Below, one piece after another: positions 5,649-24,979 of a DNA stretch of 40,647 nucleotides (positions are counted from its first letter, which is position 1; each line of letters opens with the position of its first letter). Origin of the DNA: a virus; IMG/VR virus record IMGVR_UViG_3300020020_000015, positions 1 to 40,647 of that record. One strand, written 5' to 3'. Made by a program: the position numbers and the translations under genes. Below the pieces are notes generated by a model. That model made no database searches. It was not told where the DNA came from and was given only the letters and a program-made list of their open reading frames with translations.

Positions 5649-5656
5649 AACAAAGG

Positions 5657-5689
5657 ACCAGGCTCGAAGAGCCTGGTTTTCTTTTGTTT
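5657..5689 (+). terminator. Rho-independent terminator
   Basis: The stem ACCAGGCTC/GAGCCTGGT has a GAA loop and is followed by TTTTCTTTTGTTT. It closes the paralog A transcript. Confidence 0.85.
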
Positions 5690-5753
5690 CAACAAGTTGG
5701 GCGGAACTGGGCGGAGAGTGCGGCCTACCGGATTTCCATCCGATCTTCCAAAT

Positions 5754-5803
5754 TGTAACAGTTTGTAAATTATTGTTCCCAAGTTGTTCTTTTGCGTTAT
5801 AAT
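5754..5803 (+). promoter_or_regulatory. Rightward promoter P3 with operator boxes
   Basis: TATAAT is at 5798-5803. TGTAAC at 5754 and TGTAAA at 5764 are in the standard register. The third box (GTTCCC at 5775, also the -35 position) has lost the TTTACA sequence, so the promoter may be weaker or need an activator. It drives the paralog B gene. Confidence 0.65.
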
Positions 5804-5865
5804 AGACTTTGAGACAGGGAATAGTCCTTGTCTCTACCTTGGTCAAACTTAGGAGTTAGAAAGTC

Positions 5866-6306
5866 ATGGGTAAGAAGCATGTTACAGAGCACAACGAACA
5901 GAACCAGACGAACCAGGAAAGCGAGTCGCCCGTTGAGGGGGCTGATAACTCAACAGAGCGGAGTGCTGAGAACGTTGAGCAAGGTGCTACGAGCGAAGAG
6001 CAGAGCGCTTTGCCCGAGGTGCAACAGCAGGAACCGGCGGTGCCTGAAGTGGTAAAGCAGCCCGAGACGCACAAGTTCGGCATTGGTGAGTTCGCGCGGT
6101 ATTTGATCCTCAAGACGGACAAGAACAACGCGGAGATCCTGGCCACTGTGCAAAAGGTGTTCCCGAATGCTCAGACAACGCCGGCGTGCATTGCGTGGTA
6201 CAAAACGGATCTGCGCAAGAAGGGGCTGCTTGCTGCCTCGGAGAAGCGCGGAAGCACGAAGACGATCCAGTTGAGCGAAGAGCAACTCGCGCAGCTGATC
6301 AAGTAA
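5866..6306 (+). CDS. Regulator-like protein, paralog B
   Basis: This 146-aa protein has two parts. Residues 1-68 or so are a disordered Glu/Gln/Ser-rich arm. Residues 70-122 are the shared module (GIGEFARYLILK, AEILATVQKVFPNAQTTPACIAWYKTDLRKKG), ending with the short helix LSEEQLAQLIK also seen in paralog A. The module is closely similar to those at 5326-5616 and 20563-21303. It forms a single-gene unit: its own promoter (5754-5803), an AGGAG ribosome binding site about 10 bases upstream, and a strong terminator immediately after. That arrangement and the acidic arm suggest an abundant early regulator or DNA-binding protein. This function is inferred. Confidence 0.8.
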   Translation: MGKKHVTEHNEQNQTNQESESPVEGADNSTERSAENVEQGATSEEQSALPEVQQQEPAVPEVVKQPETHKFGIGEFARYLILKTDKNNAEILATVQKVFPNAQTTPACIAWYKTDLRKKGLLAASEKRGSTKTIQLSEEQLAQLIK

Positions 6307-6320
6307 AGGTCACTGCGGAT

Positions 6321-6349
6321 AAAAAAGACGGCCTCGGCCGTCTTTTTTT
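6321..6349 (+). terminator. Rho-independent terminator
   Basis: AAAAAAGACGGCC pairs with GGCCGTCTTTTTT. The long A/T flanks make it potentially active in both directions. It closes the paralog B transcript. Confidence 0.9.
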
Positions 6350-6548
6350 GGCCGTGCGACATAACTCACGCGATCGCACGAAACACGTCCGACCTTTATA
6401 TATAGCCTATTGTACATTTTTTTATTAATATATGTCTTAGTGAAACACATATAAACACACACACACATAAGATAATACAACTCTTCCAGGCCGGTATATG
6501 GTCCCCCATAGTGCATCGCGCATCGCTCGCAGTACCCGCCCAGAGAGA
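6350..6548. other. Non-coding spacer with CA repeat
   Basis: This spacer holds an AT-rich run and a short (AC)n tract at about 6457-6468, then a GC-richer stretch with CATCGCGCATCGCTCGC. I find no gene, tRNA or clear hairpin. Small minus-strand frames here have no ribosome binding site or promoter. Confidence 0.5.
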
Positions 6549-6599
6549 TGCAACGAGATGTAAAAGTGCTTTACACGGGACTTCTTGAAGTGTTATAAT
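6549..6599 (+). promoter_or_regulatory. Rightward promoter P4 with operator boxes
   Basis: TGCAAC (6549), TGTAAA (6559) and TTTACA (6570, also the -35) are followed by an 18-bp spacer and TATAAT (6594-6599). TGTAAA-AGTGC-TTTACA at 6559-6575 is a perfect 6-bp inverted repeat. It drives the operon of small genes to about 10802. Confidence 0.8.
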
Positions 6600-6640
6600 A
6601 TCTGTTGCACAGCAATTGTTCACAAAACTTCAACCCTCTC

Positions 6641-6826
6641 ATGGCAACATACACCCCCTCAAAGCCTGTAGAATCCATGACCAAGCTTGAGATGGTTGAA
6701 AAAATCAAGTCTTATAGGTTCGTTTTGTTCAAATTACACAAGGAAATGGAGGCCAAAGACGAGTTAATTAATCGGTTGAATAAACTTTTAGACAAAGCTC
6801 AGAAACAATCAGGAAAGCAGAAATGA
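6641..6826 (+). CDS. Small coiled-coil protein of unknown function
   Basis: This 61-aa protein is the first gene after promoter P4. Most of its length is one charged helix with heptad-like spacing (LEMVEKIKSYRFVLFKLHKEME, ELINRLNKLLDKAQK). I chose ATG 6641 because the possible TTG at 6605 coincides with the expected transcription start. No good ribosome binding site precedes it, and ATG 6677 is an alternative. It overlaps the next gene by ATGA. Function unknown. Confidence 0.6.
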   Translation: MATYTPSKPVESMTKLEMVEKIKSYRFVLFKLHKEMEAKDELINRLNKLLDKAQKQSGKQK

Positions 6827-7044
6827 CACTGAAGTTAAAGTGGGGTAGCAAGGTGCCCCAGGAATGTGACCTGTGCCATAATAAGATAAAAAAGACGTTC
6901 ATAGACGGCCGGACCTACGGTGGTCAATGGGGCTACATGTGTTCAATATGCCACGGTATGAACGGCGTTGGCCTGGGAACAGGGCGAGGCCAAAAGTATC
7001 AGTTGGACAGTTCAGACAACCAGTTCTATAAGGTAGGACCATGA
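6823..7044 (+). CDS. Zinc-ribbon-like small protein
   Basis: This 73-aa protein has two CxxC pairs (CDLCHNKI at about residue 15 and CSICHGM at about 40) and a GVGLGTGRGQKY segment typical of a small phage protein of unknown role. The four cysteines probably bind one zinc ion. It starts on an ATGA overlap and ends on another, inside a tightly packed operon of small early genes that commonly interfere with host functions. Confidence 0.75.
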   Translation: MTLKLKWGSKVPQECDLCHNKIKKTFIDGRTYGGQWGYMCSICHGMNGVGLGTGRGQKYQLDSSDNQFYKVGP

Positions 7045-7214
7045 CGACTCCCCCGGATGATTTTGGCAACTGCATACGCTTTGCACCGTATGTGACTGCA
7101 GAGGAACGTGCGCAGCCGCCAGCGCCTGGCGTCTTGTATGAGATAGTGCAACGCTGGGAAGTGTGCACCTCAACGTATGGCGGCGATACGGTTTCCGACT
7201 GTTGCGAGGTCTAA
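7041..7214 (+). CDS. 57-aa unknown protein
   Basis: The frame opens on ATGA overlapping the preceding stop and closes with TAA two bases before the next ATG. The product has Cys at residues 11, 42, 54 and 55 and no recognisable domain. Support is the perfect fit into the overlapping gene chain. Confidence 0.6.
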   Translation: MTTPPDDFGNCIRFAPYVTAEERAQPPAPGVLYEIVQRWEVCTSTYGGDTVSDCCEV

Positions 7215-7215
7215 G

Positions 7216-7362
7216 ATGACCAGGCACCACATCATGATGGTGCTGACTGTTCTCCTCATGTTAGTTGTGGGGAGTACAACGGCGTGGGTTTCCTCAGACG
7301 CTGTCAAGGCAACGTGTACAACCGATGCCGAATGTGGTTGTACTGACGACTGTCTGGAGTAA
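7216..7362 (+). CDS. Small exported or membrane-anchored Cys-rich protein
   Basis: This 48-aa product has a short basic start (MTRHH), one hydrophobic segment (residues 6-22) and a small tail with four cysteines (CTTDAECGCTDDC). It is either a cleaved secreted peptide or a single-pass inner-membrane protein with a periplasmic disulphide-bonded knob. ATG 7216 is preferred over an upstream start at 7177 because it directly follows the previous stop and begins at the signal-like segment. A lysis or superinfection role is possible but not shown. Confidence 0.55.
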   Translation: MTRHHIMMVLTVLLMLVVGSTTAWVSSDAVKATCTTDAECGCTDDCLE

Positions 7363-7364
7363 AT

Positions 7365-7523
7365 ATGATCGGGAAGATCAAAACCAAGGTAGTCAACCCC
7401 GTTCGTCGCAGCGGAACAAATCCATATGTCATCTGCTGCTTTTGCGGATCCTTTTACACCAAGCTAGGCATCTCCCGTCATTGGGATAAATGCCCGGCCC
7501 GTCCATTGAAGGAAAGAAAATGA
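7365..7523 (+). CDS. Small C2HC zinc-finger protein
   Basis: This 52-aa protein has a Cys-x2-Cys-x11-His-x4-Cys finger (CFCGSFYTKLGISRHWDKC, residues 25-43) between basic ends. It probably binds nucleic acid or protein. The stop overlaps the next ATG as ATGA. The finger pattern is strong support despite the short length. Confidence 0.65.
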   Translation: MIGKIKTKVVNPVRRSGTNPYVICCFCGSFYTKLGISRHWDKCPARPLKERK

Positions 7524-7777
7524 TAGTAGATCTGAATGCAAGGACCAGGCTCGAGCTTGCGAGCATGGTGTACAGTCGTTGGTGCCAGGCATATGATAAA
7601 CTGAAGGAGGTCAAAGCGCTGACCTGGGAGTCGGCAGGCAAGTTTTGTCCCAAGGAAGATTGGAATGCGTACCACTTGGACATGCAGTTCACAGCACAGA
7701 AGGAGTTAGATCTAGCGACTAATTTGAAAGACGTGATTTGTAAGTTGTCACCCCTTGTTTCTGAAGAGTCAAAATGA
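7520..7777 (+). CDS. 85-aa helical unknown protein
   Basis: The ATG overlaps the previous stop and follows GAAGGAAAG, a good ribosome binding site. The product is mostly helical and charged, with no domain I recognise. It ends on an ATGA overlap with the next gene. Confidence 0.65.
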   Translation: MIVDLNARTRLELASMVYSRWCQAYDKLKEVKALTWESAGKFCPKEDWNAYHLDMQFTAQKELDLATNLKDVICKLSPLVSEESK

Positions 7778-8495: not shown

Positions 8496-8779
8496 AGATC
8501 AAACGAATCAAGCTGCTGAACATCGGTGGTCGGCTCCATTACCCAACTGGTGGACCTGACGGGGATACAGACCCGAGTCTGTTGATGCATGTCTACGAAG
8601 CGGGGGACTGCGATACCTGCCGGTGGCCGTGGAAAGACCCTGCAAAGGAGAAAGTGATCCTGGCCTGTGCGCTGTATGACGAGCGCGAGACGAATCCGAC
8701 CTGGAAGATCTACAGTGAGGACCAGATCCTTCTGCCCGATGGTACCCCCTTCTACGATTGGGAGCATCTGGTACCATGA
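8492..8779 (+). CDS. 95-aa unknown protein with CxxC
   Basis: This protein has one CDTCRWPW motif near residue 46 and a strand-rich remainder (KIYSEDQILLPDGTPFYDW). Starting and ending on 4-bp overlaps, it is coupled to the kinase gene that follows. Function unknown. Confidence 0.65.
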   Translation: MKIKRIKLLNIGGRLHYPTGGPDGDTDPSLLMHVYEAGDCDTCRWPWKDPAKEKVILACALYDERETNPTWKIYSEDQILLPDGTPFYDWEHLVP

Positions 8780-9276
8780 TGCATCTGAACTTGCATACTG
8801 AGACCATGATAGAGGCTCTGGTCCGGATTCGGGCCCCACTGTTCATAGTCCTGGTTGGAATACCTGGATCTGGAAAAACAACTTTGGCCAGGGAGCTGTC
8901 ACTGCATCTTGAGCCGATTGTCATTTGCAGTACGGACAGCCTGGATCCTCGGACTAAGCCAGGTCAGGGCAAAATGGTGCGCTTAGATCACTGGGTGAAT
9001 CGAGCGGTGATGACAGGTATCAGTGTTATCATCGATCAAACTAACATGGAGCAGATCAATCGAGTACAGCGGTTGAAACAGGCCCCTGTATGGTACACGA
9101 AGGTCTGCATAGATCTAAGTGGTACTGAGTTGGACAAGTGCATAGCAATGGTGGAGGAACGACACAAACAAGGAGGTAGATATGTACCGGAGCACGTAAC
9201 TAGGGAGCTGTATGCGAAGTACGAGTCCCCGAAGTTTAGTGAGGGATTCGAGATGATCATCGATGTTATAACGTAG
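8776..9276 (+). CDS. P-loop kinase, polynucleotide-kinase-like
   Basis: This 166-aa protein belongs to the AAA_33 / polynucleotide 5'-kinase group. It has Walker A GIPGSGKTT (Lys34), the strand VIIDQTNM that matches the kinase's characteristic DTN motif, and the lid-like RHKQGGRYVPEHVTRELYAKYESP. T4 polynucleotide kinase has an extra C-terminal phosphatase domain that is missing here. With the phage ligase it could heal nicks by phosphorylating 5' ends. Given the predicted modified-cytosine cassette, a deoxynucleotide-monophosphate kinase role is an alternative. ATG 8776 overlaps the previous stop. Confidence 0.8.
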   Translation: MMHLNLHTETMIEALVRIRAPLFIVLVGIPGSGKTTLARELSLHLEPIVICSTDSLDPRTKPGQGKMVRLDHWVNRAVMTGISVIIDQTNMEQINRVQRLKQAPVWYTKVCIDLSGTELDKCIAMVEERHKQGGRYVPEHVTRELYAKYESPKFSEGFEMIIDVIT

Positions 9277-9288
9277 TATTGGAGAGGT

Positions 9289-10719
9289 ATGAAGAAGTCA
9301 TCACTGTCTGTTGCAATTGCCATGGCGTTTGGTACTGCACATGCCCAGAGAGCACCAAACGAAGTGATCATCTACACCCCAGTAGATGGTACGGTAGCGA
9401 TCGGGAGGCGTAGCACGAACACCAACAGGAGGGTGGAGGTCCTGGTCAACAAGCAGGACGTAGTGCGACAGATAGTGATGGAATGGAAGTTCGTCGCTAA
9501 TGAAGGCCAGGCCTTTGTCATTCCCGTATATCCTCAGAAGGTCCGATATGGGGTGACAGGCTTCTGGATCGAGAAAATACTCGAGGCGGGAGGCACATGT
9601 ACCAACGAGTTCTTTGGCAGTGACCCCCGTGTGGGAGTTGTCAAGACCTGTGAGTACTGGACAGGCCCACCTCAGGTCGCAGTTAAACCCCCACCAACCG
9701 ATCATGGAGCGGGTTTACCCGTCAACATCGATGGCATTACGTTCCAACCAGGCATTAACTATCAGTACTTGTCAGCGCCTGGACCACAAAAGCCGCCTGC
9801 ACAACCAGGTGATTGGGAGAAGGGAGGAGACCTTCGGACTCTGTGCAATGTCACGAAGATGGCACGAGATGATCCTATCGTTAACCCAGGACAGCCAGGT
9901 GCAGCCCACATGCACACGTTCTTCGGGGCGGTCAACATCAACGCGTTCACTACCCCGGAAAATATCCGCCTTAATAACCAACATTCCTCCTGTCGGGGAG
10001 GGATGATCAACGCCACGGGTTATTGGGTGCCTACGATGGTGGATATGGCCACGGGCAAGGCGATCATGCCAAGATCAAATCTTGTGTATTACAAGACACA
10101 GCTCTGGTCGTACATGATCGGGTTCCCGAACATCACCCCCCTTCCTGCGGGTCTAAGGATGGTGACAGGGGATGCGAAAGCCACGAGTGGGACGAATTGG
10201 AATACCAGCTACGGGTGTCTGATGCCTGCACTTGGGTACAATCGGCCGATCCCTGCTGATCGTACGGATAAACAGATTCCCGACTGGTGCGCTGTGGGGG
10301 ACCAGATGTGGCAGGTGATCAACTTCCCACAATGCTGGGATGGTGTGAACCTGGACAGTCCAGACCATAAGTCCCATATGGCATTTCCGGTGGCCAATAC
10401 GATTCCCCCGGGTACACCAGAACGCCAATACAAATGTCCAGATACTCATCCAAAAGTCATTGTTGCCATCAGCTATCACATCCAATACGCGGTACCGGCG
10501 AATCCTGATGAGATGAAGAAATGGGCGCTCTCGAGCGATGTCTATAAGAACACTGAACCAAGTAAGCCAGGTGGATTTAGTTCACATGGCGATTGGATGA
10601 ACGGATGGGATCCGGTTATCTCCAATTTGTGGGGTGCTAACTGCTCACAAGTTCGACGGGACTGTGGCAGCCATGAAGTTGGCGACGGACGCGTTGCCCT
10701 GGAGTTCCAAGGAAACTAA
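9289..10719 (+). CDS. Exported DUF1996 protein
   Basis: This 476-aa protein starts with a signal peptide (KKSSLSVAIAMAFGTAHA, cleavage near residue 20) after a strong GGAGAGGT ribosome binding site. Residues 20-150 or so form a separate N-terminal region. From about 190 on it matches DUF1996: DPIVNPGQPGAAHMHTFFG, CRGGMINATGYWVP, PQCWDGVNLDSPDHKSHMAFP, CPDTHPKVIVAISYHIQY and FSSHGDWMNGWDP. This domain is known from secreted fungal and bacterial proteins of unknown activity and has clustered conserved His, Asp and Cys. In a phage it is unexpected. It may act in the periplasm or on the cell surface. The stop overlaps a tiny membrane-protein gene (TAATG). Confidence 0.85.
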   Translation: MKKSSLSVAIAMAFGTAHAQRAPNEVIIYTPVDGTVAIGRRSTNTNRRVEVLVNKQDVVRQIVMEWKFVANEGQAFVIPVYPQKVRYGVTGFWIEKILEAGGTCTNEFFGSDPRVGVVKTCEYWTGPPQVAVKPPPTDHGAGLPVNIDGITFQPGINYQYLSAPGPQKPPAQPGDWEKGGDLRTLCNVTKMARDDPIVNPGQPGAAHMHTFFGAVNINAFTTPENIRLNNQHSSCRGGMINATGYWVPTMVDMATGKAIMPRSNLVYYKTQLWSYMIGFPNITPLPAGLRMVTGDAKATSGTNWNTSYGCLMPALGYNRPIPADRTDKQIPDWCAVGDQMWQVINFPQCWDGVNLDSPDHKSHMAFPVANTIPPGTPERQYKCPDTHPKVIVAISYHIQYAVPANPDEMKKWALSSDVYKNTEPSKPGGFSSHGDWMNGWDPVISNLWGANCSQVRRDCGSHEVGDGRVALEFQGN

Positions 10720-10817: not shown

Positions 10818-10868
10818 TGTAACGAATCGTAAATAGATTTTACACCAAGTCGTTCTGTGTGTTATAAT
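10818..10868 (+). promoter_or_regulatory. Rightward promoter P5 with operator boxes
   Basis: TGTAAC (10818), CGTAAA (10828) and TTTACA (10839) are followed by an 18-bp spacer and TATAAT (10863-10868). It drives the replication operon starting with the primase-helicase. Confidence 0.8.
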
Positions 10869-10894
10869 AGATCTGATGCCTGCAATGGGTATCG

Positions 10895-10991
10895 TTTTCC
10901 TGGTAGGTGCTTGGTTGCACCAGCGGAGCAAAAGCGGAGGGACTAACCAACCCTCCGCTTCCGCCTTAAAGCCAGGAATATACCAGGAAAA
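10895..10991 (+). ncRNA. Structured 5' leader of the primase-helicase mRNA
   Basis: TTTTCCTGGTA (10895-10905) pairs perfectly with TACCAGGAAAA (10981-10991), and the latter contains the AGGAAA ribosome binding sequence of the GTG start at 10995. Inside this 11-bp closing helix are two hairpins: GGTGC/GCACC (10906-10921, 6-nt loop) and AAGCGGAGGG/CCCTCCGCTT (10932-10960, 9-nt loop). The result is a multibranch fold that would hide the ribosome binding site. It matches no riboswitch class I know. Confidence 0.6.
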
Positions 10992-10994
10992 TTT

Positions 10995-13016
10995 GTGGCG
11001 ACTATTCAACTCTTTGCCCCACCGCCTCCAGCACCATGGGATAACGAGAGTAGCGGCTTTATGCACGCCGATTTAGCCAGGTCTGGGCTAGTTCCTTTAG
11101 ACATGGGAGCTTACCCCATTGCCAGTACTAAATATAGTGCTGCTGCCTACTGCATTCCCTATAAAGACAATGACAATCTTTGGCGTTGCCGTATAGCTCG
11201 TGAACGAGATAAGTACATCTCGACTACCAATTCTAAACCAGACATCTGGATACCTCCACAGACCGAGCTTGCTAGACTCTATGAAGGCGATTTGTTCATT
11301 GTTGAGGGGGAAAAGAAAGCAGCAGCGGTATATAAGTATTGGGATGTAGCCAGTGTAGTCGGCATTGGTGGATGTTGGAATGCTGTTACGAAGAATGAGA
11401 AGAACGAACAGTACCGGCTCATTGAAAAGCTCCAGATCCTGATAACACCAGGTCGCCGAGTGCATCTCATCCTTGATGGCGATGTCATAGATAACAAGAA
11501 TGTCGGGCGTGCAGCTCTGACATTGAATAATTGCATCGAAGCCCTCAACGGCTCAATGCAGTTGTATCGACCCCCCACAGAATGGAAAGGGGTCGACGAT
11601 TGGATCTTCCAGGATCCGAAAGCCTGCTTCGAACATCTCGAGCTAGTTCCATTTGATAAGCTCGCGATTAACCGTACTCTTCTTTACACTCAACTTGATT
11701 GTAGTGTAGGTTCTAATGGTTCTTTAATCTTAAATGAGCTAAATGCTAGCAAGCTCATTGCCTATCATTTCAAGTCTCTTGGAGTAGTTCAAGATAAACG
11801 ACTTGGCTTCATAGACAAAGATCGGTCCATTATTTCAATGGCATCTTTGCATACTAAAGCCCTGCATTATCTCCAGGGTGACATCAGCCCCCGTTATCCT
11901 GCTAGTGCCATTAATGGAGGTTTTTCAGATCTAACTAGCTCTGGCATAAACATAGTAGATCTTGTTCAAGACTTTGTTAAGAGTCGTCTTGTTTGGGACG
12001 GTGTTGCTCGTCTTGAAACTTGGGGTAGCGAGTATTTTCAGTCAGACATGCCTAAGCTTGCGAATGAGTGGGGTCGAATCCTGCTTACGTCCTTAGTCAT
12101 GAGAATACTTGAACCAGGATGTAAAGTAGATACAGTTTGCATCCTTAATGGTCCACAAGGAATCGGTAAGACTACGTTCTTTGAACAGCTAGCCGTCCTT
12201 GACGACTACCATTTCTACCGAGCTATATCAGATCTTCCAGGAAGTAATGGCGGTGATGATCGGACCTTTAAGCAGACTATTGTCTCTAGTTTAGTTGTAG
12301 ATCTGAGCGAAGGGATAATCTTCGAAAGTAGAAAGACATCTAGTGACAGGCTCAAACAGTTCATAACAGAACAATTTGATGAATACCGCGTCGCTTATGC
12401 CAAGAACAACACAATTACACCGCGCGGCTATATCTTCGTTGGAACTACAAATAGACCTGATCAATTAACTGATCGAACTGGTTCAAGAAGATGGCTATAT
12501 TTGAATGTCAGTAAGATCAAGCGTCTTGAATATGAAGTAAAATTGCAATTACTAGCTGAAGTTGTTGCTAGATTTGATGCGATTAAAGCGACTAACTGGT
12601 ATGATTTGCATCTTGAAATGTCAGACATGCCTGAAGAGCTACGTAATGAACACCAGCATATCACTAATCCTAATGAACTTCTAAATATCCAGCATTACCG
12701 TTCAGACTATTTAACAGATGCAATACAGCATTATTTAGATATAGATGATGTATCATATTTGCGCACTGGTGAAGCAGTTATAACAGCTGCATTTGTTGCT
12801 GCTAAACTAGGCAAATCAGGTGATGGTAGATATATTGATCAAATTTCACGCAAGTTCTCAGAGCTAAACGTGTCACCAACTTTTCCATATACATTTGAAA
12901 GAGTGCGGAAACGTGGAGGGCAAATGGACTTTAAACAAGGTCATAAGGAGCAATATATTGGATTAATAACTAACGATCAAGTAATGTTCACATGTTTCAT
13001 AGTTAAAAGGAAGTAG
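10995..13016 (+). CDS. Primase-helicase: toprim-like region plus VapE/VirE-type ATPase
   Basis: This 673-aa replication protein has two parts. The N-terminal region contains a toprim-like DUF3854 section (LFIVEGEKKAAAVYKYW near residue 100, HLILDGDV near 160). The C-terminal part is a virulence-associated-E-type P-loop ATPase with Walker A GPQGIGKTTF (about 386), Walker B SLVVDLSEG (about 432), VGTTNRPDQL (about 481) and the TGSRRW arginine finger. Phages and islands use such proteins to prime and unwind DNA at the replication start. The GTG follows an AGGAAA site that lies in a helix of the leader. The second half is strikingly AT-rich. In 12661-12720 I counted 20 G/C of 60, unlike the ligase gene that follows. 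Confidence 0.88.
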   Translation: MATIQLFAPPPPAPWDNESSGFMHADLARSGLVPLDMGAYPIASTKYSAAAYCIPYKDNDNLWRCRIARERDKYISTTNSKPDIWIPPQTELARLYEGDLFIVEGEKKAAAVYKYWDVASVVGIGGCWNAVTKNEKNEQYRLIEKLQILITPGRRVHLILDGDVIDNKNVGRAALTLNNCIEALNGSMQLYRPPTEWKGVDDWIFQDPKACFEHLELVPFDKLAINRTLLYTQLDCSVGSNGSLILNELNASKLIAYHFKSLGVVQDKRLGFIDKDRSIISMASLHTKALHYLQGDISPRYPASAINGGFSDLTSSGINIVDLVQDFVKSRLVWDGVARLETWGSEYFQSDMPKLANEWGRILLTSLVMRILEPGCKVDTVCILNGPQGIGKTTFFEQLAVLDDYHFYRAISDLPGSNGGDDRTFKQTIVSSLVVDLSEGIIFESRKTSSDRLKQFITEQFDEYRVAYAKNNTITPRGYIFVGTTNRPDQLTDRTGSRRWLYLNVSKIKRLEYEVKLQLLAEVVARFDAIKATNWYDLHLEMSDMPEELRNEHQHITNPNELLNIQHYRSDYLTDAIQHYLDIDDVSYLRTGEAVITAAFVAAKLGKSGDGRYIDQISRKFSELNVSPTFPYTFERVRKRGGQMDFKQGHKEQYIGLITNDQVMFTCFIVKRK

Positions 13017-16164: not shown

Positions 16165-16199
16165 CCTAGGCTTGAGTGAGTCTAGAACAAAGGATTAAG

Positions 16200-16835
16200 A
16201 TGAGAGAAGTAGTTTTCGACTTTGAAACCAAAGAGATAGACGTACTGCCAAAGTACCCGCCTAGACCGGTGGGCTTAGCCATTATGGTTGATGGTCAGCC
16301 TCTAGCTACCGATACGTTCTATCTTGCCTGGGGGCATGCGAATGGGGGTAACTGTGAAGAAGCATCAGTCATGGAAGCTGTTAGAGAGCTCGCATGTGCT
16401 GACGACACCGTCTGGATCGCACACAATTTGGCATTCGATGCAGCTGTACTCCAGAAGCACTGGAATATTCGAGTGCCATGGGGACCCAGAACAGTATGTA
16501 CCATGCTCCTCACGTTTCTGGGTAATCCATATGGAGCGCTGTCCCTTAAGGAGATATGTGAAGGACCCTTGGGCATGCCGCCTGTGGAACGTGACGCAGT
16601 ACGGGATTATATCGTCAGAAACGGGCTCGGTAAGGCAACTGATTGGGGCGCACATATCTGGCAAGCACCCTGGGAACTAGTGGCGAGTTACGCTAAGGGC
16701 GACATCGTTAGATGCGCGGCGCTGCACAAGTTTTGGAGAACAGTTCCATACTTGCTGACCCCTTATAAACCTAAGTCTACACCAGTAGACAAAGGACCAG
16801 TGCTTCATGGAGAGGGGCGTCCAAATGGATTCTGA
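16200..16835 (+). CDS. DnaQ-type 3'-5' exonuclease (separate proofreading subunit)
   Basis: This 211-aa protein has the three Exo motifs of DEDDy nucleases: FDFET (Asp7, Glu9), AHNLAFDAAVL (Asp80) and YAKGDIVR (Tyr164, Asp168). In most family A phage polymerases this activity is an N-terminal domain. Here it is a separate gene directly before the polymerase, overlapping it by about 11 bases. It probably associates with the polymerase to proofread. ATG 16200 follows AAAGGA at 6 bases and puts motif I at the very start. A longer GTG start at 16176 has less support. Confidence 0.88.
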   Translation: MREVVFDFETKEIDVLPKYPPRPVGLAIMVDGQPLATDTFYLAWGHANGGNCEEASVMEAVRELACADDTVWIAHNLAFDAAVLQKHWNIRVPWGPRTVCTMLLTFLGNPYGALSLKEICEGPLGMPPVERDAVRDYIVRNGLGKATDWGAHIWQAPWELVASYAKGDIVRCAALHKFWRTVPYLLTPYKPKSTPVDKGPVLHGEGRPNGF

Positions 16836-18129
16836 GCAACTCGAGATTCGGTTGATGCCCCATATCTATGAGATGGAGCAACGGGGTGTTAACCTAGATG
16901 GTGCAGGTCTAGCTAAAGCCTATGACTTCTACTTTTTCAAGATGGACGAACTGGATGACCAAATCCATCAGCGTCTTGGAAAGGTCTTTGACATTGATTC
17001 TAACGAAGATTTGGCTAACGCTATTCAGGCTAAGTACCCCCTTGCAGAGTTCTTCCCTACACCAGGAGGCGCCAGGTCGGTGGCTAAGGATTCACTGACA
17101 AATGCTATTCAGAGCGTAGATAAGGATGTCTTAGCTAAGCTTCTTATCCGTGGCGCGCTTGCAACGAGCCTACGGACATTCATTGGTCCATGGCATAGAC
17201 AATTTCAGGATAATGGCAGACTCTTCATCAAGTGGAATCAGTTCCGCAACTACACAGACACAGGCGCACGTACTGGCCGTCTCTCGTCTTCTCCAAATCT
17301 CCAGAACATACCTGTTGAATGGGAACAGCTCCTCGCAAGACTCAAGCACTGCGATGACTACCAAATCGGGTTCGACCTCCCCCAAATCCGTCAATACATT
17401 ATACCAGATCCTGGAAAGACTTTTGTAGGGGGTGACTATCAGGCGCAGGAAATGCGCCTACTGGCACACTTTGCTGGTGGGGCATTACTTGAACACATCC
17501 TGGCTAATCCTACTAGTGACATTCACCAGATAGCTGCGGACATCGCACAACTCACTAGGCCAGTGGCAAAGACCCTGGGCTTCGCAGTACTGTATGGTGC
17601 AGGAGTAGGTCGGGTAGCTGCTTCTATTGGTAAGACAGTTGCAGAAGCCGCCATCATCAAAGCACAGTACCTTCGGGCATTGCCAGAGATCAAGCAGTTC
17701 TCGAAAGCAGTTACAGACCAGGGCAAAAAACTTGGACATGCGATCACCACGATCAATGGTAGGAAGTATGTCACTGACTCGCCTAAGCCGGGAGTCAATG
17801 GTCAGCGTACCATGACATACGAGTACAAGCTCGTCAATTACAAGATCCAGGGTTCAGCTGCCGAACAGACAAAGTTAGCTATGTTGAATTACGTTGAAAA
17901 GAACGAAGGACAACTAGTACTATCAGTACATGACCAGTTAGTAGCCCAGGTCGACATCGGCACCACCCCCACAAAACTGGGTGATGCCATGACCGAAGCC
18001 TTTGCGGAGCGGCTAAGATACCAGATTGTAGTTGATCTGGCTGAGGGGCCTAATTTTGCTAAAACCAAGGGTGGTGGTACTCGTGCATTGGGCATGAAGC
18101 CTACCAACACTATAACGCCGGAGCTGTAA
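16825..18129 (+). CDS. Family A DNA polymerase, polymerase domain only
   Basis: This 434-aa replicative polymerase has motif A GGDYQAQEMRLLAHF (Asp204, with the steric-gate Glu), motif B RPVAKTLGFAVLYG (Arg245, Lys249, Phe253) and motif C SVHDQLVAQVD (His369, Asp370). Motif C is usually His-Asp-Glu and here reads His-Asp-Gln. Phe at the O-helix selectivity position predicts normal discrimination against dideoxynucleotides. There is no exonuclease domain, which is encoded just upstream. ATG 16825 has GAGGGG seven bases ahead, and ATG 16807 is in frame but lacks a site. The TAATG end couples it to the nuclease gene. Confidence 0.93.
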   Translation: MDSEQLEIRLMPHIYEMEQRGVNLDGAGLAKAYDFYFFKMDELDDQIHQRLGKVFDIDSNEDLANAIQAKYPLAEFFPTPGGARSVAKDSLTNAIQSVDKDVLAKLLIRGALATSLRTFIGPWHRQFQDNGRLFIKWNQFRNYTDTGARTGRLSSSPNLQNIPVEWEQLLARLKHCDDYQIGFDLPQIRQYIIPDPGKTFVGGDYQAQEMRLLAHFAGGALLEHILANPTSDIHQIAADIAQLTRPVAKTLGFAVLYGAGVGRVAASIGKTVAEAAIIKAQYLRALPEIKQFSKAVTDQGKKLGHAITTINGRKYVTDSPKPGVNGQRTMTYEYKLVNYKIQGSAAEQTKLAMLNYVEKNEGQLVLSVHDQLVAQVDIGTTPTKLGDAMTEAFAERLRYQIVVDLAEGPNFAKTKGGGTRALGMKPTNTITPEL

Positions 18130-21347: not shown

Positions 21348-21641
21348 ATGGATCGAGAACAATATCTCAAGCTAATCGGCCCCGCAATGGAGCTGGTAGC
21401 CAAGAAGGCTCAGGACTACGGTGATGACGCTAAGGAAGTGGGGCTGCATACCTACTTCCCGTATGGCATGCCATCGTATGTTCAAATGATGCACACCAAG
21501 ACCCTACGCCTGGTCGCCATCACAAAATCAGGCAGGATGCCCAACTACGAGACAGTCAATGACACGTTGATCGACTTGATCAACTACGCGGTCTTTGCCC
21601 TCGACTACCTCGACAAGGATCCAGATGGCATACGAGGCTGA
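21348..21641 (+). CDS. DUF1599 / Nmad1-like protein
   Basis: This 97-aa helical protein has KKAQDYGDDAKEVG near the start, a central MHTKTLRLVAI and ETVNDTLIDLINYAVFALDYL at the end. These match the outline of DUF1599 (nucleotide modification associated domain 1), a family named for its genomic link to modified-base enzymes. Its exact reaction is not known. AAGGAG six bases upstream supports the ATG. It overlaps the synthase gene by 17 bases. The neighbourhood is what makes the assignment attractive. Confidence 0.6.
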   Translation: MDREQYLKLIGPAMELVAKKAQDYGDDAKEVGLHTYFPYGMPSYVQMMHTKTLRLVAITKSGRMPNYETVNDTLIDLINYAVFALDYLDKDPDGIRG

Positions 21642-22446
21642 CTACCTGCGACTAGTCCAGGACATCATTGTATTCGGGCAGACGCGTGACACCCGGAACG
21701 GTGCCACTAAGTCACTGTTCAGTACAACCCTCTCCATTGACGAGCTTCGCGAGGATCGGTTCCCGCTTCTTACTCATCGACGCCTTTTCTACAGAGGTGT
21801 CTTTGGCGAGCTTGCAGCCTTCGTGAGGGGGGCCCGAACTGTCGGTGAGTTCAAAGAGTGGGGTTGTAACTACTGGGATGCCAACGCTAAGGCATGGCCC
21901 CGCAACAGAGGCATACCCCTTGAGCGTATGGAGGTCGGCCAGGTCTATGGCGCTCAGTGGGTCGACTGGGACGAATGCGGCTATAACCAGCTAAAGGCCC
22001 TGATCTGGTCACTGCAGAACGAGCCCCATAGCAGGCGTCACGTCATAACCACTTTCTCGCCTACCGCCGTAGCATGTTTGCCTCCATGTCACTTACTGGC
22101 GCAGTATTATGTCAATGACGACGAGACGCTGGATTGTCTGGTCTTCATGCGTTCTGTGGACGTTATACTGGGGCTTCCTAGTGATGTTGTACTTTACTCA
22201 GCTCTGTTAGTACTACTAGCGAAGGAGGCAGGACTTAAGCCAGGTTCTCTGGACTTTACACTTGGTGACACGCATATCTATGCCAATCACATTGACCAGT
22301 TCGAAGAGGTAATGAAAGATCACACCATCTTCGATCCGCCGGAGTACACCTTGCTGGTATCAGGCGTGCTTAATTTCAAGCCTGAGAACATCGAGATTCG
22401 CAACTATCTATACAACAAGGTCATTCCCTATGAATTCAATGTTTAA
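21625..22446 (+). CDS. Thymidylate-synthase-fold enzyme, predicted dCMP (hydroxy)methylase
   Basis: This 273-aa protein is clearly of the ThyA family. It has catalytic Cys155 in LPPCH, Glu62 in FGELAAF, the folate/dUMP residues in GQVYGAQW, Arg176 and Asp179 in RSVDVILGLP, and GDTHIYANH. The residue after GLPS is Asp187. In E. coli ThyA this position is Asn177, which reads the uracil ring. In T4 dCMP hydroxymethylase it is Asp179, and Asn-to-Asp at this site is known to switch preference to dCMP. The likely substrate is therefore dCMP, giving hydroxymethyl- or methyl-dCMP with methylene-tetrahydrofolate. AAGGA at 6 bases supports ATG 21625. The MazG-like and dCMP deaminase genes overlap in sequence downstream. 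Confidence 0.85.
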   Translation: MAYEADYLRLVQDIIVFGQTRDTRNGATKSLFSTTLSIDELREDRFPLLTHRRLFYRGVFGELAAFVRGARTVGEFKEWGCNYWDANAKAWPRNRGIPLERMEVGQVYGAQWVDWDECGYNQLKALIWSLQNEPHSRRHVITTFSPTAVACLPPCHLLAQYYVNDDETLDCLVFMRSVDVILGLPSDVVLYSALLVLLAKEAGLKPGSLDFTLGDTHIYANHIDQFEEVMKDHTIFDPPEYTLLVSGVLNFKPENIEIRNYLYNKVIPYEFNV

Positions 22447-22822
22447 ACAGGTCAGTGACTTCCATGAAGTCGTCCTAGGTCAGGACTTCCCTGCGATTCC
22501 GACATTGGTGAGCCCAACGTGGGTTATCGAGCGCACCAGGTTTTTACTCGAAGAAGTTGGCGAATTCACGGACGCGGCTATCAAAGGTGACATGGTAGAA
22601 GCAGCCGATGGACTAGCTGACATCGTCTACGTTGCACTCGGAACTGCCTGGCAAATGGGCATACCGATGGATAGGATCTTCGAACATGTTCACAATTGTA
22701 ACATGAAGAAGGTACGCGGTAGAACGACAAGAGGAAACGATGTCGATGCCATTAAACCTGCTGGATGGGTTCCCCCGAATCAAGGTATTGCTAAGCTCTT
22801 GGAGGATGCCCTTGATCGGTAG
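22430..22822 (+). CDS. MazG-like nucleotide pyrophosphohydrolase
   Basis: This 130-aa all-alpha NTP pyrophosphatase has the paired acidic motifs LLEEVGEFTDAAIKGD and AADGLADIVYVALGTAW that hold magnesium. T4 gp56, the dCTPase/dUTPase that removes dCTP when cytosine is to be replaced, belongs to the same all-alpha superfamily. Beside a predicted dCMP-modifying enzyme, hydrolysis of dCTP to dCMP is a sensible role. General house-cleaning of dNTPs is the alternative. ATG 22430 overlaps the synthase end by 17 bases. Confidence 0.8.
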   Translation: MNSMFKQVSDFHEVVLGQDFPAIPTLVSPTWVIERTRFLLEEVGEFTDAAIKGDMVEAADGLADIVYVALGTAWQMGIPMDRIFEHVHNCNMKKVRGRTTRGNDVDAIKPAGWVPPNQGIAKLLEDALDR

Positions 22823-23270
22823 GCCACCGATCGACCAGACCATGCTCGAGATAGCCTATGTCTTGGCTCAACGAGCAACCTGCGCGAAGCTGGCAGTTGG
22901 ATGCGTACTTGTTGACACCAGGTATCGGATCATTGGTACTGGTTACAATGGTAATGCAAGGGGACAGACACACTGCCTGGAGAAGCCTTGTGAAGGTAGG
23001 TACGCGCCGAGGGGGTCTGACCTCTGCGAGGCGATACATGCGGAGCAGAACGCCCTTCTAACTTGTCATACGCCGGATGATATCCATGTCTGCTATACCA
23101 CTCACGCCCCCTGCATGCGATGCACCAAGCTCCTCCTCAATACAGGATGCCGAAACATTGTCTTTGCCAACGGAGACTTCACCGAACCTGCCGCTCAGCG
23201 ACTCTGGCAAACAGCAAGTCGATGCTGGTTCAGGTACAGTGGTTTGGCGAACAGTCCCAGGCTTTCCTGA
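22806..23270 (+). CDS. dCMP deaminase-type enzyme
   Basis: This cytidine/deoxycytidylate deaminase-fold protein has zinc and catalytic residues in IHAEQNALL (His78, Glu80) and APCMRCTKLL (Cys103, Cys106). The N-terminal PPIDQTMLEIAYVLAQRATCAKLAVG matches the usual dCMP deaminase opening. It converts dCMP to dUMP, feeding dTMP synthesis and competing with dCMP modification. ATG 22806 directly abuts GGAGG, and TTG 22812 sits at a better 6-base distance, so the start may be 22812. The final 30 residues or so overlap the HNH gene and look degenerate. Confidence 0.82.
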   Translation: MPLIGRPPIDQTMLEIAYVLAQRATCAKLAVGCVLVDTRYRIIGTGYNGNARGQTHCLEKPCEGRYAPRGSDLCEAIHAEQNALLTCHTPDDIHVCYTTHAPCMRCTKLLLNTGCRNIVFANGDFTEPAAQRLWQTASRCWFRYSGLANSPRLS

Positions 23271-23715
23271 GTTCGAGGTAACCGAGAATGGAGACATCAG
23301 AGAAAACGGTGGCCCAGCTCGAGTCCGAGTTGCAGGCTCTGGGCATATCTACGTGCTTCGATCCCACTCACGGCCTGCGTTACTGGTGCATCGTGCGATC
23401 CTCATGGCTTGGGATCGACTCCCTCAACCAGGCGAAGTTTGTCGCCACAAGGACGATAACCCCGCAAACAACGTCCGGTCTAATTTAGTTTGGGGAACTA
23501 AGAAGGAAAATGCGGAAGACCGCATTGTTAATGCTCCGGCCAAGAATCCAGGGTGGACGGAGGAGAGGAGACTTCTGGAACGGATCAAAGGATTGGAGGA
23601 AGAGAACCTGAAACTAAAAACCCAGAACATGCGTCTCAAAGCGTCGATCATGAACCTCATGGCCGACAAGTCCTACACAATCACCCAATCACTGTTAAGG
23701 GAACTAGGATTATGA
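23239..23715 (+). CDS. NUMOD4-HNH endonuclease
   Basis: This 158-aa homing-type endonuclease has a NUMOD4 DNA-binding motif at the start (WRTVPGFPEFEVTENGDIR), then HRAILMAW and the HNH core CRHKDDNPANNVRSNLVWGTKKEN, and a coiled coil (LERIKGLEEENLKLK) near the end. GTG 23239 is chosen because it puts NUMOD4 at residue 2, as in the family. It overlaps the 3' end of the deaminase gene. Insertion of such a mobile gene may have replaced the deaminase's original C-terminus. Confidence 0.8.
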   Translation: MVWRTVPGFPEFEVTENGDIRENGGPARVRVAGSGHIYVLRSHSRPALLVHRAILMAWDRLPQPGEVCRHKDDNPANNVRSNLVWGTKKENAEDRIVNAPAKNPGWTEERRLLERIKGLEEENLKLKTQNMRLKASIMNLMADKSYTITQSLLRELGL

Positions 23716-24139: not shown

Positions 24140-24979
24140 ATGAAGAAATTCTTGATGACAGCGGTAGCGTTGGGAGCGATGGCCATGCTTCCAGCGGCGA
24201 AAGCTGATGTTTGTTTCTTACTTGCAAAGGATGGCACCTGCTCCTTTGCTACAGACACCAGCGGAGGAACGACGATCTACAGTAACCCCACCAACCTGAG
24301 TAACATCGGGTCGGGGACGATCACGCCGTTCTTGGGTACGCAGAACAATGGTGTGGAGTTCGGAGTGACGACCGACATCCCCCAGGTCAATCTGCTCCCA
24401 CTGGATGACAAGCGTGACAACGCCAACACGTTCACTAACACTTTCACGAGAAGTGATTTGGGGATTCTGTCGTTGGGGGGAACTGATTACTACCAGTTCT
24501 TCCTGGATACCAATGAACCCAGTAATGTGGGGGACAAACTGATCAGTATTGACACGATCAGGATCTGGGACGCACAGTCGGCAGCTTTGCAACTGCTGAC
24601 GAACCAGAACGTCACCTCACTCGGGGATGTGGATGGCCTGTTCTCATCACTCATCTATGCGATGGGGCCGACGAACCAAATCATCATGGACGGTACGTTG
24701 TTTGCAGGTAGCGGCCTCGGCTACGACCTGTCGATGCTTATCCCTGTGGTGGAGTTCGCCGGTGTGGGGATGGACAGCCGGTTGATCTTCGGCACTGGTT
24801 TCGGCCAGGCAGGAGGTTCGGCGTCAACAGCTGACGGCTTCGAGGAGTGGGCCTACTTGTCGGCAACACCGAGAAACGATGTGCCAGAACCCAATAGCCT
24901 GGCACTCGCAGGTATCGGGTTGATTCTGCTGGGCTATGGCATCCGGCGTAGCCAGAAAGCTAAGACCGCAGCAGCCTAG
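24140..24979 (+). CDS. PEP-CTERM exported protein
   Basis: This 279-aa protein has an N-terminal signal peptide (KKFLMTAVALGAMAMLPAAKA, cut near residue 22), a Ser/Thr/Gly-rich beta-type body, and the classic exosortase signal at residues 248-270: VPEPNSLALAG, a hydrophobic helix, then RRSQK. In bacteria exosortase recognises PEP and processes such proteins for delivery to the outer surface or extracellular matrix. A phage copy implies a host with exosortase. It is the last rightward gene. It may alter host surface, biofilm or superinfection. AAGGAAA upstream supports the start. Phage-encoded PEP-CTERM proteins are uncommon. Confidence 0.88.
   Translation: MKKFLMTAVALGAMAMLPAAKADVCFLLAKDGTCSFATDTSGGTTIYSNPTNLSNIGSGTITPFLGTQNNGVEFGVTTDIPQVNLLPLDDKRDNANTFTNTFTRSDLGILSLGGTDYYQFFLDTNEPSNVGDKLISIDTIRIWDAQSAALQLLTNQNVTSLGDVDGLFSSLIYAMGPTNQIIMDGTLFAGSGLGYDLSMLIPVVEFAGVGMDSRLIFGTGFGQAGGSASTADGFEEWAYLSATPRNDVPEPNSLALAGIGLILLGYGIRRSQKAKTAAA

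Follow-up and report, generated by a model that had tools for sequence, protein, structure and literature searches.

A four-gene cassette with a predicted dCMP-type synthase in an environmental podovirus-like genome

To our knowledge, replacement of cytosine by 5-methylcytosine (5mC) throughout a genome by way of the nucleotide pool is known essentially from phage Xp12. The DNA of Xp12 contains 5mC for all cytosine (PMC7653180), and its deaminase converts 5-methyl-dCTP to dTTP (PMC12088426). The DNA of AXL1, a phage of the same group (Pamexvirus/Bosavirus), is cut by only 5 of 31 enzymes (PMC9206674). T4 gp42 is a dCMP hydroxymethylase (dCH), whose signature, as proposed from the T4 ternary complex, consists of Asp or Glu at position −3 of the catalytic Cys and Ser or Thr at position −2 of Tyr; T4 dCH is also without the C-terminal tail of thymidylate synthase (TS), and the D145N substitution abolishes formation of 5-hydroxymethyl-dCMP (Park et al., PMC6400193). 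Substitution of Asn by Asp in TS reportedly shifts its preference to dCMP, with formation of 5-methyl-dCMP (Liu & Santi 1992 and others, as cited in PMC8670742). In the MetaGPA study, PF00303, PF01503, PF00383 and PF14437 co-occur, often specifically, on modified-cytosine contigs, and the top discriminators are residues 177 and 147, the former being Asp in most of the modified contigs (PMC8670742).

Genome context and layout of the cassette

The window analysed here is a whole virus record of 40,647 bases (IMGVR_UViG_3300020020_000015). Its gene content is podovirus-like (short-tailed phage), with structural genes (major head protein, portal, tail) running leftward and early genes (primase/helicase, ligase, family-A DNA polymerase, PD-(D/E)XK nuclease, VRR nuclease, SNF2-like helicase) running rightward. 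No nucleotide-level relatives were found among named phages when window 1-25000 was searched. A cassette of four genes lies directly downstream of the early replication genes at 21348-23270 (Table 1). The initial annotation had named a DUF1599 gene, a MazG-like pyrophosphatase and a dCMP deaminase as neighbours of the synthase; these genes are real, the Pfam matches of all four exceed the curated cut-off, and their order is conserved among close relatives. The window contains a single PF00303 gene.

Table 1 Features of the cassette and of other regions of the window
Feature	Coordinates	Strand	Evidence
DUF1599 / nucleotide modification associated domain 1 protein, 97 aa	21348..21641	+	PF07659 30.5 bits
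TS-fold dCMP-type synthase (predicted), 273 aa, Asp187 = ThyA Asn177	21625..22446	+	PF00303 209 bits; start ATG 21625, stop TAA 22446
MazG-type all-alpha NTP pyrophosphatase, 130 aa	22430..22822	+	PF01503 58 bits; motif EVGE-11-EAAD
dCMP/deoxycytidylate deaminase	22806..23270	+	PF00383 70 bits, PF14437 29 bits; zinc motif HAE ... PCMRC
HNH endonuclease ORF	23077..23715		
DNA polymerase, apparently split	16176..18129		both halves match phrog_17, in sequence order
Protein with signal-like N-terminus and PEP-CTERM sorting motif	24140..24979		PF07589
DUF1996 protein	9289..10719		PF09362 151 bits; without PHROG match
P-loop kinase-like protein	8758..9276		AAA_33, polynucleotide-kinase-like

The deaminase ORF is open from ATG 22740, and the in-frame ATG at 22806 is the likelier start. 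Counted from the latter, each junction in the cassette is an overlap of 17 nt, and such overlapping gene ends suggest coupled translation of the four genes. In clade I, the group of synthases that includes that of the window, the gene order is exonuclease, polymerase, PD-(D/E)XK, VRR, SNF2, DUF1599, ThyA, MazG and deaminase, often with HNH next; members missing a cassette part are mostly cut by a contig end. This order is kept down to about 43-45% sequence identity, which argues for a functional unit.

Several other features of these genomes were recorded. The HNH ORF of the window overlaps the 3' end of the deaminase gene in another frame, and HNH follows the cassette in several relatives. 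The two parts of the DNA polymerase, an exonuclease ORF and a polymerase ORF, overlap in different frames. One contig, L027, carries two diverged ThyA-MazG-deaminase blocks (5649-7721 and 10831-12519), which could be a genuine duplication or an assembly that joined two phages of the same sample (compare L032). The PEP-CTERM protein, whose gene lies where early genes give way to late ones, could indicate a host with a PEP-CTERM/exosortase system. The DUF1996 protein is unusual for a phage.

Active site of the synthase

The synthase was assigned to the TS fold family (PF00303) by its profile match and by its catalytic Cys/Glu/Tyr/Arg/Asp/His set. Its AF2 model has a pLDDT of 93.9, and the best PDB fold matches are all true TS, with TM of about 0.9. 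Aligned with E. coli ThyA, it has Glu62 (E58), Tyr108 (Y94), Arg137/138 (R126/127), Cys155 (C146), His156 (H147), Arg176 (R166), Ser177 (S167), Asp179 (D169) and His217/Tyr219 (H207/Y209); the Cys155, Glu62, Arg176 and Asp179 listed in the initial annotation are thus all in place. The motifs of the ThyA reference sequence also appear in the PDB alignments. Asp187 falls exactly on Asn177 (LGLPSD in the window, LGLPFN in ThyA) in an alignment with E. coli ThyA, T4 gp42, SPO1 gp29 and phage relatives. T4 gp42 also has Asp at this position, and the objection that Asp187 might lie elsewhere does not apply. Asp at the Asn177 position is the residue expected of a dCMP-type TS homologue, and the residue together with its clade makes dCMP the likely substrate.

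At the positions proposed to distinguish a hydroxymethylase, the window synthase resembles a TS. Specifically, position −3 of Cys155 is Leu152 (LPPC), position −2 of Tyr108 is Gln106 (GQVYG), and the tail IPYEFNV aligns over its full length with the ThyA tail IKAPVAI, so that the tail has TS length. His156, at ThyA position 147, is kept; T4 gp42 has Thr and AXL1 has Pro there. The −3 rule is obeyed by both hydroxymethylases compared, since the dUMP enzyme of SPO1 also carries Asp there. AXL1 and PaMx28, which stand in for Xp12 (genome MT664984) in the sequence comparisons, have Asn; in AXL1, Asn rather than Asp or Glu means that the hydroxymethylase acid is lacking there too. Membership of the window synthase in the T4 dCH group was rejected on the signature residues. 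A TS-like site with Asp at 177, the absent dCH signature and the best match of the AF2 model to TS predict methylation with moderate confidence, and from the absent signature we infer that the product is 5-methyl-dCMP. The initial annotation had left hydroxymethyl- and methyl-dCMP on an equal footing; methyl-dCMP is favoured by the TS features and the Xp12 parallel, and that equality is not supported given the missing signature (PMC6400193).

Conservation of Asp187 and relatives of the synthase

A profile scan of viral contigs gave 79 synthase loci, and the comparison set comprised 87 sequences including that of the window. Asp occupies the ThyA-177 position in 84 of the 87, at divergence to about 35% identity, and in all 22 sequences of the window's own subclade. 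The exceptions are L055 and L068 of clade II, which have Asn, and, from outside the clade, the TS of a Bacteroides phage. Such conservation across diverged sequences is more than chance. Asn is the residue in 11 of 12 other phage TS/td-type synthases taken from outside the clade; the remaining one is the td of the T4-like phage SP18 (L094, 195-1055), an otherwise ordinary td beside frd, while T4 td has Asn. Because SP18 td presumably makes dTMP, Asp alone is no proof of dCMP use. Thus, the statement that Asn-to-Asp is the switch from dUMP to dCMP agrees with what is reported for characterised TS and needs this qualification: Asp at 177 appears strongly associated with cytosine substrates, and need not suffice by itself. 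As a separate observation, L055 and L068 carry Asn inside an otherwise Asp clade, and their neighbourhoods could show what accompanies loss of Asp.

The relatives fall into two clades. Clade I (window, L004, L005, L015-L032) has Val or Ile at 93, PPCH at the nucleophile and Met at 165. In clade II (VPMS1, Edwardsiella KF-1, ctXG1253, annotated 'pyrimidine hmase', and many more contigs), residue 93 is Asp, the nucleophile motif is PCCH and residue 165 is usually Gln. The tree joins the two (support 98/92) and separates them from the Xp12 group and T4 gp42; given the great branch lengths of T4 gp42 and SPO1 gp29, the number of origins of Asp is uncertain. The window synthase lineage appears distinct from the Xp12 group and from T4 gp42, with 21-23% identity. 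Clade II synthases are also podoviral enzymes with Asp177, are 37-39% identical to that of the window, and adjoin a DNA polymerase, a MazG-type gene and often a deaminase. They differ in the Asp at 93 and the PCCH, and in the members checked DUF6378 or a dGTP diphosphohydrolase N-terminal domain fills the DUF1599 slot. In L007, L012, L013 and L008 the slot after MazG is occupied by DUF6378 or, in the case of KF-1, by a fusion of a deaminase with the dGTP diphosphohydrolase domain, which suggests interchangeable small nucleotide enzymes. For VPMS1 (L107), 148 HhaI sites and a largest predicted HhaI fragment of 1.8 kb were counted, and an HhaI restriction profile of this phage has been published (PMC4870561).

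Proposed pathway, alternatives and known systems

The three partner genes have the motifs of their families. The MazG-type protein has the ExxE...ExxD metal motif and matches DR2231 (E 9e-11), its closest relative in the PDB, which cleaves dUTP among other dNTPs (PMC5122711). The deaminase has the HAE and PCxxC zinc ligands of dCMP deaminases, a motif present in 53 of 57 relatives; it matches deoxycytidylate deaminases in the PDB (E 3e-14) and ComEB at 79 bits, below that model's cut-off. The DUF1599 domain was found in 32 loci, and throughout clade I it occupies the place upstream of ThyA. It was considered as a possible MazG-fold domain: its AF2 model is all-alpha (pLDDT 85), its PDB matches, including AF_0060, MazG and DCTPP1, are weak (all E above 1), and hhalign against the MazG family found nothing.

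We propose, with about an even chance of being right, that the cassette diverts dCTP and makes 5-methyl-dCMP, giving virion DNA with 5mC as in Xp12. In this view the four genes would be an operon whose products remodel the pool of cytosine nucleotides in the infected cell. Specifically, hydrolysis of dCTP by the MazG-type enzyme would both take away the usual precursor and yield dCMP as substrate. Asp187 would recognise cytosine, and the synthase would methylate C5 of dCMP with methylene-tetrahydrofolate by TS-type hydride transfer, yielding 5-methyl-dCMP. Host or phage kinases would convert this to 5-methyl-dCTP for incorporation by the phage polymerase, and 5mC would replace much or all of the cytosine, conferring resistance to many restriction enzymes. 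The deaminase would turn 5-methyl-dCMP/dCTP, or dCMP, into thymidine or uridine nucleotides, so that dTTP is supplied too. This role would resolve a puzzle, as a deaminase fits poorly with the supply of dCMP suggested by the initial annotation and well with the conversion of 5-methyl-dCTP to dTTP in Xp12 (PMC12088426). DUF1599 would be an accessory all-alpha domain of the same pathway; its fusion and homology in AXL1 are observed, and its role is putative. A purpose in cytosine modification is supported by the same Pfam set on modified-cytosine DNA in MetaGPA (PMC8670742); the window has this set and Asp at 177 but His at 147. Points against the 5mC proposal include that His, at a top MetaGPA discriminator; the finding of no dihydrofolate reductase (DHFR) in the 28 relatives' records, although a methylase yields dihydrofolate; and the presence of the P-loop kinase in only 2 of 16 relatives' records (63% identical in that of L005, 36% in that of L018). 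Many of the 28 records are fragments, and the DHFR result is no help as evidence of methylase chemistry. Thymidylate kinase (PF02223) was found in none of 16 records. The P-loop kinase itself is a possible nucleotide or DNA kinase. CpG and TpG content was also considered as evidence and is uninformative on replacement of all cytosines.

It is unlikely that the synthase is a dCMP hydroxymethylase that makes 5-hydroxymethyl-dCMP like T4 gp42, with 5hmC in virion DNA. Asp177 is shared with gp42, the Pfam neighbourhood is the same as that of the carbamoyl-5hmC contigs of MetaGPA (PMC8670742), failure to find DHFR nearby fits a release of tetrahydrofolate unoxidised, and in sister clade II the Asp at 93 could replace the water-activating acid. 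However, the two signature positions, −3 of Cys and −2 of Tyr, hold Leu and Gln in the window enzyme, D145N abolished 5-hydroxymethyl-dCMP formation by T4 dCH (PMC6400193), the TS-like tail and His147 are kept, and no glycosyltransferase, carbamoyltransferase or TET-like domain was found in the window ORFs scanned, which covered all but a few very short ones. The initial annotation likewise recognised no glycosyltransferase; its suggestion that additional modification would have to be novel loses its relevance if the cassette makes 5mC, for which no such enzyme is required. The altered cytosine of the virion DNA would probably be 5mC and not the T4-type hydroxymethylcytosine.

Two further readings leave the DNA cytosine ordinary. 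Less probable again is plain thymidylate supply, in which Asp is tolerated and dUMP from the deaminase and MazG is converted to dTMP. Apart from Asp187 the active site is TS-like, a deaminase and a MazG/dUTPase-type enzyme classically supply dUMP, DR2231 cleaves dUTP, and in SP18 an otherwise normal td, adjacent to frd, carries Asp. Against this reading, the Asp of 84 of 87 sequences faces Asn in 11 of 12 other sampled phage TS, Asn-to-Asp shifts characterised TS to dCMP (PMC8670742), and the pairing of DUF1599 with MazG is common to the Xp12 group. A detour in which 5-methyl-dCMP is made and then wholly deaminated to dTMP is quite improbable. The deaminase does adjoin the cassette in the window, dCMP deaminases accept 5-methyl-dCMP, and Xp12 makes dTTP from 5-methyl-dCTP (PMC12088426); yet Xp12 combines the same deamination with full 5mC replacement, and MetaGPA ties the gene set to modified DNA (PMC8670742).

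Tentatively, the 5mC proposal can be extended: phages may have a third line of dCMP synthases, closely related to ordinary TS and distinct from the Xp12 group and T4 gp42, that makes 5-methyl-dCMP in small podoviruses. With its own deaminase, it would feed both 5mC and thymidine from dCMP, one enzyme replacing two precursor pathways, and clade II may have become a hydroxymethylase via Asp at 93. Should the clade act as Xp12 does, this way of replacing cytosine would be widespread among environmental podoviruses, and the engineered Asn-to-Asp switch would have natural counterparts. Methyl or hydroxymethyl cytosine could then also be predicted from metagenomes by a sequence rule, namely Asp177 alone or combined with an acid at −3. 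The cassette also points to a testable role for DUF1599, and SP18 td offers a naturally occurring case in which to see whether Asp suffices for the substrate switch.

The engineered TS mutants (L. casei N229D, E. coli N177D) share with the window synthase a TS-like active site and the Asn-to-Asp change; the window synthase, a natural enzyme, additionally differs by F176S, Q165M and an insertion preceding the VYG motif. T4 (gp42, gp56 and deaminase) shares the TS fold, the catalytic Cys, Glu and Arg, the dCMP-selecting Asp and a dCTP-removing partner, gp56 in T4 and putatively MazG in the window. In contrast to gp42, the window synthase (21% identity) has neither residue of the Asp145/Ser94 signature and retains a C-terminal tail of the TS type, and no glucosyltransferase was found in the window.

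By analogy, the closest functional parallel is Xp12 and its 5mC, not T4. In the Xp12 group (AXL1 gp62-gp64), an Asp177 synthase, a dCMP deaminase and MazG plus DUF1599 stand in one block, as in the window. AXL1 gp64, which adjoins the synthase and deaminase, consists of a MazG domain, with the same motif and spacing as the window MazG, and a C-terminal domain 44% identical to DUF1599 (hhalign prob 99.6, E 1.4e-24). All four parts are thus present in the window, where MazG and DUF1599 are separate genes rather than fused. The window synthase is 22.6% identical to that of AXL1 and has His instead of Pro at 147; this identity and its separate tree branch, in a tree limited by long branches, do not support membership in the Xp12-group synthase clade. 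AXL1 has DHFR next door, and none was found in the relatives of the window phage. At such low identity a shared product rests on analogy, and what the window shares with a group of known product is the four-part composition.
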